Origin: an uncultured Lachnospiraceae bacterium
GTDB lineage: Bacteria; Bacillota; Clostridia; Lachnospirales; Lachnospiraceae
Reading direction: 5' to 3'
Assembly: GCA_902794095.1 (NCBI GenBank)
Contig: CADBFZ010000005.1
Span: forward strand, 160,819-224,818
Length of the DNA: 64,000 nucleotides
Shown here: piece after piece, positions 42,317 to 45,914 of the stretch
How the letters are laid out: each line of letters begins with the position of its first letter
Numbering within the stretch: the first letter of the stretch is position 1
Notes under the pieces: model-generated
What the model saw: only the letters and a program-made list of their open reading frames with translations
Told to the model about the DNA's origin: nothing
Databases searched by the model: none
Made by a program: the position numbers and the translations under genes

Positions 42317-43099
42317 ATGATACTTGCATTTGACGTCGGAAATACAAATATCGTCATGGGCGTTCTTGATGAGGAGAAGACTTACTTCCTCACGAGATTT
42401 GCTACCGATCACGCCAAGACCGAGGCAGAGTATGCCGTGCTTGTTAAGAATATTCTTGAGATCAAGGGCGTAAAGCTGGATGAGATCAAGGGCGGTATCA
42501 TTTCGTCCGTTGTTCCTCCCATGAATGACATACTCGGTGCGGTTATCAGACTCCTCACCGGACACAATGCACTTATCGTAGGCCCCGGACTTAAGACAGG
42601 CCTCAACATCGCAGTTGGCGATCCTTCCGAAGTCGGTGCGGATCTTGTTGTTGGCGCGGTTGCAGCAATTGCCAAGTACGAAGCTCCCATGCTCATCATG
42701 GACCTGGGCACCGCAACCACCATAACTGCCATCGGCAAAAACAAAGAATTCCTGGGCGTTATTATCTATCCCGGTGTTAAGGTTTCTTACGATGCGCTTG
42801 TCGGAAGAACCGCACTCCTTTCCAGCATCTCTTATGATGTTCCCGAGAAGGTTATCGGAACCAACACCAGGGACTGTATGCAGTCCGGACTTATCTACGG
42901 AAATGCTGCAATGCTGGACGGACTCATCGACAGATGTGAGAAGGAGATGGGAGGTGTTAAGTCCCTCATTGCAACCGGCGGACTTTCATCCAGGATCACA
43001 CCTTATTGCACTCACGATATTGTTTTCGACGATGACCTTCTCATCGACGGACTCAGGATCATCTACTACAAGAACGTAAAAGGATCTAAGAAGAAATAA
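42317..43099 (+). CDS. coaX: Type III pantothenate kinase
   Basis: 260 aa. Phosphorylates pantothenate with ATP in the first step of CoA synthesis; CoaX needs a monovalent cation. Family motifs: the ATP loop start MILAFDVGNTNIVMGVLD, GADLVVGAVAAIAKY, the MDLGTATTITAI motif and GVIIYPGVKVSYDALVGRTALL. Cytoplasmic. Ribosome site GGAGGG. Coupled by position with the S component upstream. Confidence 0.95.
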   Translation: MILAFDVGNTNIVMGVLDEEKTYFLTRFATDHAKTEAEYAVLVKNILEIKGVKLDEIKGGIISSVVPPMNDILGAVIRLLTGHNALIVGPGLKTGLNIAVGDPSEVGADLVVGAVAAIAKYEAPMLIMDLGTATTITAIGKNKEFLGVIIYPGVKVSYDALVGRTALLSSISYDVPEKVIGTNTRDCMQSGLIYGNAAMLDGLIDRCEKEMGGVKSLIATGGLSSRITPYCTHDIVFDDDLLIDGLRIIYYKNVKGSKKK

Positions 43100-43102
43100 T
43101 AT

Positions 43103-43771
43103 ATGGACAGTATAATGGACGGGATTCCGGTAAAGATCATATATTCGCGCAGGAAAAGCCTGTCCATGAAGTTTGACAAGACAGGAACTCTTATAGTGAA
43201 CGCACCTTCCTTCGTATCTGAGGGGGAGGTGCGTACTTTTTTGCGGGAACATACGAGGTGGATAAGGCTTAACTATGTGAAGGCTGTGGACATGGCGCGG
43301 AACCTGGAGGAGCACGAGTTTAAGGACGGCGGCAAGGTGCTGTATCTGGGTGAGGAGTATGGGATTAAGATCTCCGGAAGGGGAAGAATAGTTAAGTCCG
43401 GTGAGGGTTTTCTTTTCCCGGAAGGGTCCACGCAGGAGACATACGAAAGGTGGCTTAAAGCTCGCGCAAAAGAATACCTTCCGCTAAGGCTTAGGTACAG
43501 AGCGTATGAGATGGGGATTTCCTACAGGGATGTGAGAATATCCGGGGCAAAGTCAAAGTGGGGATCGTGCTCGGAGACGGGGATGATCACTTTGAGCTGG
43601 AGACTGATGATGTGTCCGCCGGAGTCAATTGAGTATGTTTTGATACATGAGCTGTGCCATAGAATTCATATGGATCATTCGAAGGTATTTTGGGCTGAGG
43701 TTGAGAGCAGAATGCCGGATTACAAGAAGCATAAGAAGTGGCTCGATGACCACGGGTATCTCATGGAATAA
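43103..43771 (+). CDS. YgjP-like metallopeptidase domain protein (DUF45)
   Basis: 222 aa. The zinc-binding HELCHRIHMDHS motif lies near residue 178, with a later acidic partner, as in SprT/YgjP-type (M48-related) zinc proteins; KSKWGSCSETGMITLSWRLMMCPPESIEYV is the family core. Soluble; probably a cytoplasmic protease-like enzyme of unknown target. It starts 3 bases after coaX with a weak ribosome site. Base use differs from its neighbours (many GGG, AGG and GTG codons), so it may be less expressed or recently acquired. It ends against the hairpin of the convergent RNA locus. Confidence 0.85.
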   Translation: MDSIMDGIPVKIIYSRRKSLSMKFDKTGTLIVNAPSFVSEGEVRTFLREHTRWIRLNYVKAVDMARNLEEHEFKDGGKVLYLGEEYGIKISGRGRIVKSGEGFLFPEGSTQETYERWLKARAKEYLPLRLRYRAYEMGISYRDVRISGAKSKWGSCSETGMITLSWRLMMCPPESIEYVLIHELCHRIHMDHSKVFWAEVESRMPDYKKHKKWLDDHGYLME

Positions 43772-43774
43772 AAA

Positions 43775-44190
43775 AGGCAAATTTTTAGGCGCCACCCGAT
43801 AAAACTTTCATCGAATGGCGCCCCTAGTAGATGGGTTCCTCAATATCCATTGGCGGATACCTCCTGTATTATATTTTAACCCATTCGCTTCCGGCTTCCT
43901 CTCTCTTGAAATCGCTTCATTCTTCATACGACCTGTTCGTCCGGACACATATATAAACGGTGCAGTCTGCGTTCTGAGACGATATGCATATAAGCTTGTG
44001 TCGTGTTTTCACTCTTTCTTAAGATCCGTCCGGTTGCTCCGGGATATTAACGGTTTATATATCAGCTAGTACATTGGTCCACCCTCCATGCGACGGTTAT
44101 CAGCTTCTACTTAATGTCCCATCGGACCGTCCTCCTTTTCTAAAAGCCTTGATGAGATTTCGTTTTGTTTTTCATCTGCTTTTGTTTTAT
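43775..44190 (-). ncRNA. Unrecognised stand-alone RNA with three SD-preceded mini-ORFs
   Basis: A strong promoter at 44197-44225 would start a minus-strand transcript near 44190. No minus-strand frame above 60 codons exists here. The 3' hairpin (43788-43822: GGCGCCATTCGAT / ATCGGGTGGCGCC, 13 pairs with two G-T) is very stable; a T-run comes 12-18 bases after it. Three GGAGG sites precede ATGs by 8, 8 and 9 bases: ATG 44122 (MGH), ATG 44074 (MY) and ATG 43850 (MDIEEPIY). The first two modules share the order GGAGG, GG(T/A)CC, ATG, TAG, GCTGATA, ACCGT. A 10-bp long-range stem ATATATAAAC / GTTTATATAT is possible. I counted 14 GGA triplets. The gap 43772-44511 has no protein gene I can support. 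Confidence 0.6.
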
Positions 44191-44196
44191 GTGCCT

Positions 44197-44225
44197 ATAA
44201 TAATCTAAATATTTCGCCTTGTCAA
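44197..44225 (-). promoter_or_regulatory. Strong sigma-A promoter of the non-coding locus
   Basis: On the minus strand: TTGACA (perfect), 17-base spacer, TATTAT (five of six). It is the best -35 box I found in the window. It points away from thrH into a region without long ORFs. Upstream (44226-44511) the sequence is AT-rich, then A- and C-rich, and shows nothing I can call. Confidence 0.82.
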
Positions 44226-44511
44226 CACCTTTTTCAAAAAATATTTTAGAAATAGCAAATATATTTCGATAACGTTTAAGTAATTGCTAAAATATTCTGA
44301 CAACTTACACCCAAAACCCGACGGAAAATCACCGGAAAAGGCGCAAATCAGAGGAATTTTAAATCTATACAAAATTCGGATGTGTAAAAGTGTCCGATCC
44401 GGCTCCCCAAAAGGCCTCGAAAAGCCCAAAAACCTTTATTTTTACGGCATTTTCTGTTATTCTTATGGTTGGATTTTAATGAAGATTTTTAAGTGAAAGG
44501 GATTTATAAAA

Positions 44512-45117
44512 ATGTATATTACTTGTCTTGACCTTGAGGGAGTTCTTGTTCCCGAAATCTGGATCGCATTCTCTGAAAAGACCGGTATTCCGGAACTCAG
44601 AAGGACCACAAGGGATGAGCCTGATTATGATAAGCTCATGAACTTCAGACTCGGAATTCTCAAAGAGCACGGCCTCGGACTTAAGGAGATCCAGGAGACT
44701 ATCGCAACGTTAGATCCCCTCCCCGGCGCAAAGGAGTTCCTTGACGAGCTCAGAAGCAGGACCCAGGTTCTGATCCTCAGCGATACTTTCGAGCAGTTTG
44801 CAGCACCTCTTATGAAGAAGCTCGGCATGCCCACCATCCTCTGCAACACCCTTGAGGTAGCAGAAAGCGGCGAGATCACCGGCTATAGAATGAGATGCGA
44901 CAAGTCCAAGCTCACCACCGTTAAGGCTCTTCAGTCCATCGGATATGAGACCATCGCAAGCGGCGATTCCTTCAACGATCTCGGAATGATCCAGGCCAGC
45001 AAGGCAGGTTTTCTTTTCAGAACTACTGACCAGCTTAAGAAGGACTATCCTCAGTACCCCGCTTTCGAAGAGTACGACGAGCTCCTTAACGCTATCACTG
45101 ATGTAATGAAGGATTAA
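44512..45117 (+). CDS. thrH: Bifunctional phosphoserine phosphatase/homoserine phosphotransferase
   Basis: 201 aa, HAD superfamily, close to ThrH over its full length: MYITCLDLEGVLVPEIWIAFSEKTGI (nucleophile Asp 7), TRDEPDYDKLM, LILSDTFEQFAAPLMKKLG (motif II), and IASGDSFNDLGMI (motif IV). ThrH of Pseudomonas removes phosphate from phosphoserine and can move it to homoserine; here it may supply serine synthesis. Ribosome site AAAGGG. Its stop overlaps the truA start by one base. Confidence 0.9.
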   Translation: MYITCLDLEGVLVPEIWIAFSEKTGIPELRRTTRDEPDYDKLMNFRLGILKEHGLGLKEIQETIATLDPLPGAKEFLDELRSRTQVLILSDTFEQFAAPLMKKLGMPTILCNTLEVAESGEITGYRMRCDKSKLTTVKALQSIGYETIASGDSFNDLGMIQASKAGFLFRTTDQLKKDYPQYPAFEEYDELLNAITDVMKD

Positions 45118-45914
45118 TGACCAATTACAAGCTGATAATAAGATACGACGGCACCGGATACCGCGGGTGGGAACATCAGCCCGGCGAGGAGAAGACCATT
45201 CAGGGAAAACTCGAGACCGCGGTAATCAGGATGCTTAACCCCTCCGGGGTAAAAGAAAACGAAGGGCAGCCTGGCGACAGTCTCGGCTCCTTCGAAGGCG
45301 ACATTCCCGATATCATCTCTGCGGGCAGGACCGATGGCGGCGTACATGCACTTGCCATGTGTGCCAATGTAAAGCTTGATACGAAGCTGACCTGCACCGA
45401 GATAAGGGACGGTCTTAACAGGAACCTCCCCGATGACATCTGTGTCACAGACGTAAGCGTAGCGGGGGACAGGTTTCATGCAAGGTATAACGCAAAGGGC
45501 AAGACCTACAGATATACCTGCTATGCCGGAGAACTCAAGCCTGTTTTCGACAGAAGATATTGCTACGAGCTGGGAAAGGTGCCTGATATCGAGGCGATGA
45601 AAAAGGCCGCATCAATTATTATCGGCGAGCACGACTTTACTTCTTTTTGCGGAAACACACGTATGAAGAAGTCATGCGTAAGAACCGTCGACAAGATCGA
45701 CATTGAATACAAAGACAGTTATCTGACTTTAACCTATCACGGAAACGGCTTCCTCCAGTACATGGTAAGGATCATGACGGGAACCCTCCTTGAAGTGGGA
45801 CAGGGTAAGAGAACTCCCGAATCCGTGGCCGAGCTTTTCGATACATTGGACAGAAGCAAGGCAGGTTTTACGGCACCTGCAAGAGGACTTGCTCTTGTGG
45901 AGGTAGATTATTAA
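45117..45914 (+). CDS. truA: tRNA pseudouridine synthase A
   Basis: 265 aa. Converts U38-U40 of tRNA anticodon arms to pseudouridine. Catalytic Asp 73 lies in SAGRTDGGVHAL (the usual motif is GRTDAGVHA). Other signatures: IRYDGTGYRGWEHQP, RFHARYNAKGKTYRYTCY, HDFTSFCGNT, and GNGFLQYMVRIMTGTLLEVGQG. There is a longer acidic insert near residues 42-62 than in short homologues. Coupled to thrH by an ATG/TAA overlap. Confidence 0.95.
   Translation: MTNYKLIIRYDGTGYRGWEHQPGEEKTIQGKLETAVIRMLNPSGVKENEGQPGDSLGSFEGDIPDIISAGRTDGGVHALAMCANVKLDTKLTCTEIRDGLNRNLPDDICVTDVSVAGDRFHARYNAKGKTYRYTCYAGELKPVFDRRYCYELGKVPDIEAMKKAASIIIGEHDFTSFCGNTRMKKSCVRTVDKIDIEYKDSYLTLTYHGNGFLQYMVRIMTGTLLEVGQGKRTPESVAELFDTLDRSKAGFTAPARGLALVEVDY

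Follow-up and report, generated by a model that had tools for sequence, protein, structure and literature searches.

Structured RNAs with no assigned function are familiar, and several described systems share traits with the locus reported here. CsrB-type sponge RNAs carry repeated purine-rich motifs that resemble ribosome binding sites and come from stand-alone genes present in several copies, and leader-peptide attenuators and minigenes contain very short ORFs on which it matters how the ribosome is placed at the stop codon. The raiA motif, or ModT RNA (Rfam RF03072), is described in one report as a structured, stand-alone RNA of Firmicutes that acts in trans in C. difficile (PMC11706538); ROOL, GOLLD and OLE, whose functions are unknown, are presented in another as large structured RNAs of bacteria, ROOL having first been found in the rumen (PMC12286853); and a study of translated and dual-function small RNAs counted ORFs of 10–50 aa (PMC5521070).

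The present locus lies at about 44190–43788 on the minus strand of the window, the whole 64,000-nt stretch of DNA from an uncultured Lachnospiraceae bacterium that was analysed, and comparison with its relatives supports an undescribed, stand-alone RNA gene of the Lachnospiraceae. The predicted RNA is about 400 nt long (43788–44190, minus strand; alignment A1, 12 sequences), with a 5′ end that we infer to lie about 7 nt past the −10 box. The original prediction had suggested such an undescribed RNA, unlike RNase P RNA, tmRNA, SRP RNA or 6S RNA, and this agrees with the lack of a credible Rfam match to the region, with homologues that show two-sided compensatory changes, and with a promoter and hairpin present in 15/15 of them. 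Rfam 15 gave no match at gathering score in the window; within 43700–44520 there were six matches at E ≤ 10 (best E 0.67), all far below gathering, and for 28 further loci, own and related, searches at E ≤ 1 gave 0 and 4 matches, of which the best had E 0.011 and all fell short of gathering. ARAGORN found no tRNA or tmRNA in 42800–45400, and searches of open-licence papers turned up no title on this RNA.

A promoter of the form TTGACA-N17-TATTAT had been proposed for the minus strand at 44225–44197, and it proved to match 11/12 consensus bases and to be the best of six promoter-like sites in 43000–45200, where shuffled sequences average 3.5; neither the hexamers nor the 17-nt spacing differs in any of the 15 same-genus homologues. 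Between the RNA and the divergent neighbour thrH is an operator-like site, AACGTTATCGAAA (44264–44276, minus strand), which in homologues takes the form AACGTTWTCG and may resemble a CcpA site. Measured from where the −10 box ends, it stands at −80 in 12/15 homologues and at −124 in genome G024, and no copy lies within 160 nt in the two genomes, G003 and G011, that have the RNA at another genomic place; the site may serve the RNA, thrH, or both. The thrH gene (44512–45117, plus strand) encodes a phosphoserine phosphatase/homoserine phosphotransferase (NF010109 and TIGR02137 over cut-off) and adjoins the RNA in 12 of 13 fetched loci of relatives, with 83–97% protein identity. On the other side, the 3′ hairpin of the RNA faces a convergent YgjP-like metallopeptidase gene (43103–43771, plus strand; PF01863), which we regard as context only; in most genus loci this far side is occupied by convergent ygjP or by the end of coaX, and clustering of ORFs found no conserved co-directional downstream gene common to 14 loci.

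The region had also been described as an RNA locus with no sizeable ORF and no frame above 60 codons. This stands for the minus strand within the RNA, where the longest wholly contained frame is 46 aa, but not for the plus strand, which has an 84-aa frame at 43815–44069, nor for a minus-strand frame of 74 aa (44205–44429) that touches only the promoter. The antisense 84-aa frame was rejected as a conserved entity, stops or gaps breaking it in relatives. The RNA gene itself is upheld, but it is not free of coding signals, as it contains three conserved mini-ORFs.

Homologues of the full locus are confined to part of one genus. The BLASTN comparison that had been proposed matched the region in 13/97 genomes, all 13 in one genus of 63, comprising the window's own genome, 11 same-genus genomes with nearly full-length matches (69–92% identity), and G024, whose 47-base match marks a diverged copy. 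Model R1, of the central domain, matches 13/31 genus genomes, newly adding G003, and in 397 genomes of the family it gives two matches, both in this genus; G011 was added by a motif probe. Model R2, built from the resulting 15 sequences, recovers those 15/31 genus genomes at E ≤ 1e-5, and weaker places (G021 at E 0.24, and second places in G018 and G012) were not counted. The 15 genomes retain the promoter, a covarying central domain, the three mini-ORFs and the 3′ hairpin. An exact 20-base probe for mini-ORF 3 found 12 places in named genomes, all of them Lachnospiraceae by title and including strains P6A3 and AC2028. Among the 16 genus genomes without a homologue a probe found eight places in six genomes as against nine for the reversed control, showing no enrichment; none of the eight was accepted, and the one whose context was examined (L165) resembles coding DNA. 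In the window's own genome GAGG-N3..6-TCCRATG occurs at nine places (four for the reversed control), and the other eight show no evident gene start, as judged by frame length only.

The central structured domain (43912–44015, minus strand; helices P1, P2, P3 and P4) is defined by models R1 and R2 and by pair counts. Folded as a single sequence, the minus strand has a z of −1.96, with 0/100 shuffles equally stable, as compared with −1.16 and 12/100 for the plus strand. Across 12 sequences, 99.5% of cells in the four helices pair, against 14–38% in slid controls, and with three distant sequences added the figures are 93.6% and 18–43%. Changes on both sides of a pair were counted in 19 cells, where shuffles average 5.3 and 0/500 reach that number, the tested structure having itself been derived from the same sequences; among them are P1 pairs that go from GC to AU and from CG to UA, and a replacement of AU by GC in P3. 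The number of pairs changed on both sides is six, a figure reached by 22/500 shuffles, and that of pair types is 12, reached by 332/500; neither stands out. The compensatory changes by which a structured RNA is recognised are present, with two of five measures no better than shuffles; for P2 the alignments contain no two-sided change, and the three distant sequences have gaps there. As for the helices proposed in the original prediction, the words of the long-range pairing ATATATAAAC/GTTTATATAT occur jointly in 3/15 homologues, and those of GACGGT/ACCGTC in 2/15, so that neither is supported by relatives, as judged from the presence of the words only.

The three mini-ORFs, all on the minus strand, each follow a Shine-Dalgarno-like GGAGG. 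The first of these sites (44131–44135) lies 8 nt upstream of mini-ORF 1 and is weaker in one subgroup (AAGGAAGT) and in G003 and G011; the second (44083–44087) is GGAGGG in all 12 rows of A1, and the third (43860–43864) is AGGAGG in 15/15 homologues. Mini-ORF 1 (ATGGGACATTAA; 44111–44122) reads MGH-stop in the window and MGH, MGN or MGY followed by TAA or TGA in 15/15, and mini-ORF 2 (ATGTACTAG; 44066–44074) reads MY-stop in 13/15, with TAG or TGA, and MDT-stop or MDM-stop in the other two. Mini-ORF 3 (43824–43850) reads MDIEEPIY-stop, and its form is MD[INF]EEPI[YHCKS]-stop in 13/15 and MDNEPFQ-stop in 2/15, with TAG/TAA swaps at the stop, one TTG start, and synonymous changes at GAG/GAA (twice) and CCC/CCT; variable states number 4, 3 and 5 by codon position, a slight excess. 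The search patterns were derived from the alignment, that for mini-ORF 1 contains the stop, and G011 was located with such a pattern. Selection on the start, stop and codons of an ORF, as is asked of translated small RNAs, appears in these comparisons, and selection on the starts, the stops and some codons of the mini-ORFs is supported. We note that a small hairpin, UCC-AAUG-GGA, can be drawn, partly by eye, with the start codon in its loop; it is impossible for mini-ORF 2.

The terminal hairpin foreseen in the original prediction is present as a strong, terminator-like hairpin at about 43788–43823 (minus strand), starting at the base after the mini-ORF 3 stop. It is kept in 12/12 rows of A1 and follows the last mini-ORF in 15/15 same-genus copies; the window's copy has a weak U-tract (AAAAATTTGCC), and a terminator scan did not call the hairpin. 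In 35 copies (15 of the genus and 20 from other genera) the last mini-ORF has 5–11 codons, and in all 35 the first hairpin pair falls between 6 nt before and 1 nt after the base following the stop, which we offer as description and not as a test, because we picked by eye copies whose last ORF could be recognised, and folding was begun 6 nt before the post-stop base. Loci outside this set are L092, L093, L095, L108, L110 (a masked stretch), L126, L129, L150, L153 and L154, and likewise the six loci of the L119 type discussed below. Retention of the promoter, domain, mini-ORFs and hairpin, and contact between the last stop and the hairpin, are thus supported by the copies compared.

RNAs of the same predicted anatomy were found in genomes of 20 further Lachnospiraceae genera. 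A probe that leaves the stop codon free, GAGG-N3..6-TCCAATGGGA, occurs at 70 places in 56/397 family genomes (11 for the reversed control), and all 70 were fetched and scored for a stop within the next two codons. Early stops number 26 in frame 0 against 10 and 7 in frames +1 and +2 (p 4e-5), and in the 34 sites that lack a long open stretch the counts are 18, 2 and 3 (p 6e-7), tandem and array sites among the 70 being non-independent; the other 36 sites have 8, 8 and 4 by frame. A promoter-like site of at least 10/12 lies within 330 nt upstream in 21 of the 26 early-stop sites, mostly with TTGACA and 17-nt spacing, and in 17 of the other 44; eight of these loci we take to hold this RNA or a sister of it whose first ORF is longer. 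Two of the 26 sites (L124 and L126) were dropped, as they precede ordinary genes, leaving 19 genomes of 19 genera, to which G173 adds a twentieth. The mini-ORF of L124, GGAGG-TCCAATGGGAAAATAG with the product MGK-stop, stands directly upstream of its ordinary gene and is preceded by an element that, by eye, we take to resemble a cobalamin riboswitch.

The last mini-ORF and hairpin are also recognisable in G033, G265, G147 and G447, and G051 and G387 have complete tandem copies, each with its own promoter and hairpin. G446 has an array of about ten motifs, some of them without an early stop or a start, so that, with the start-less ACCACC form described below, not every motif is a mini-ORF. A second family-wide probe, TCCRATGGGANAYTRA, found 24 places against three for the reversed control; outside the genus 3/22 were accepted (L073, L074 and L075), the rest resembling coding DNA by eye. 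A stricter probe that includes the stop found nothing in 391 genomes across the class, a set with 16 family members including the window's own genome, whose copy TCCGATG it cannot match; it would match about 14/397 family genomes. No body shared across genera emerged beyond weak R2 matches in 27 loci (best E 0.012, in G446).

Several further elements came to light at these places. Six loci (L119, L140, L144, L123, L096 and L098) form a second RNA type, with a TTGACA promoter and a GGAGG-TCCAATGGGA front, a different body, and a longer first ORF ending in ...QY..; in it CAATATGAG pairs with CTCATATTG, GTGGTA/TACCAC being replaced by GTGGCA/TGCCAC in one of the six (by eye), and Rfam offers no credible match. 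A start-less motif, GAGG-N-RACCACCRAAA, was seen by eye alongside mini-ORFs in L091, L110, L112, L129, L139, L142 and L074. A mini-ORF MKGR[SDG]P-stop, also noticed by eye, is found in L097, L132, L128, L122 and L075, from five genera, with synonymous changes and one TTG start.

We give a probability of about 0.5 to the reading that this is a stand-alone RNA of about 400 nt, from a fast-evolving Lachnospiraceae group, that acts in trans and is loaded with ribosomes through its mini-ORFs. Transcription, translation and trans action are what we infer from sequence; on this reading one RNA would combine serial mini-ORFs and their Shine-Dalgarno sites with a folded domain, and ribosomes would initiate on it, link 2 to 8 residues and terminate. 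Since the last stop lies at the base of the hairpin, the last ribosome would sit on it. The folding, stability or partner binding of the RNA might then depend on how many initiating ribosomes and release factors are available, the peptides themselves presumably being of little importance. The broader proposal, of a Lachnospiraceae-wide class of serial start-stop RNAs that have the final ribosome sitting on the hairpin at the last stop and that report ribosome and release-factor supply in trans, we advance only tentatively, as possible rather than probable.

Second to a ribosome-loaded RNA, and with a smaller though appreciable chance, comes a base-pairing or scaffold small RNA whose domain or other part does the work and on which ribosome binding only shields against nucleases. 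STAB-SD sites protect some Bacillus mRNAs in this manner, the GGAGG sites are more widely kept than the start codons, the ACCACC forms amount to a purine site without an AUG, and the domain covaries; however, the stops and codons are also kept, which binding of a 30S subunit for protection alone would not need. That retention also speaks against a CsrB-like sponge, in which repeated purine-rich mimics of ribosome binding sites would titrate a translational repressor. The repeated GGAGG motif (about ten in G446), the tandem gene copies, and CsrA in the window's genome and in 8/9 genus carriers tested, the window's included, would suit a sponge, yet of 28 carrier genomes 13 have CsrA over cut-off and 15 do not, and outside the genus it is found in 5/19 and missing at cut-off in 14/19; CsrA is therefore disfavoured as a general partner, and we consider the sponge unlikely, though a protein other than CsrA might be the one titrated.

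A gene whose micro-peptides have an activity of their own, for example as signals, would fit the conservation of the last peptides (MD[INF]EEPI. within the genus and MKL[RQL]... in several others), but mini-ORFs 1 and 2 encode only two or three residues, the last of which varies (H, N, Y, R, K, T or none), and we judge this improbable. The stop at the base of the hairpin in 35/35 chosen copies is what would be expected of a leader or attenuator in which the last ribosome opens the hairpin for a downstream gene; against this, the next gene is convergent in the window and in most genus loci, or is a differing neighbour, no downstream gene is shared, and the chance is slight. Slighter still is that of a diverged housekeeping RNA (RNase P, SRP, 6S or tmRNA) or of no real feature: size and stand-alone position would fit the former, but there is no credible Rfam match and no tmRNA, and the locus is conserved among relatives. 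A longer pairing between the motif and the 3′ terminus of 16S rRNA was considered by hand and set aside; its spacing varies.

The ribosome-loaded reading, if true, would mean an RNA kept for ORFs of 2 to 8 codons, blurring the boundary between coding and non-coding, and would provide a natural system for initiation and termination nearly without elongation. The carriers belong to a dominant bacterial family of gut and rumen, some having tandem copies, and the RNA is open to experiment because Lachnospiraceae bacteria P6A3 and AC2028, both named strains, carry it.

Unlike leader-peptide attenuators and minigenes, the present locus has several ORFs in a putatively independent RNA, with no shared downstream gene. 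It resembles the CsrB-type RNAs in its repeated purine-rich motifs, stand-alone gene and multiple copies, and differs in that the motifs bear start and stop codons and that most carriers beyond the genus are without CsrA. To our knowledge no known kind matches an independent RNA, here a predicted one, with serial start-stop ORFs whose last stop lies on a hairpin; Rfam offers no fit, and searches of open-licence papers gave no title on it. It shares with raiA/ModT a structured, stand-alone character, trans action being only proposed here, and differs in having no Rfam match and in its ORFs, which go unmentioned for ModT in the passages searched (PMC11706538). The lack of an Rfam match likewise separates it from ROOL, GOLLD and OLE; ROOL and GOLLD are reported to be linked to phages and prophages (PMC12286853), whereas a phage origin was rejected for the present RNA, three exact probes finding 0 viral contigs. 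With the translated small RNAs it has in common ORFs that appear to be under selection, and these, at 2–8 codons and in series, set it apart from the ORFs counted in that study (PMC5521070).
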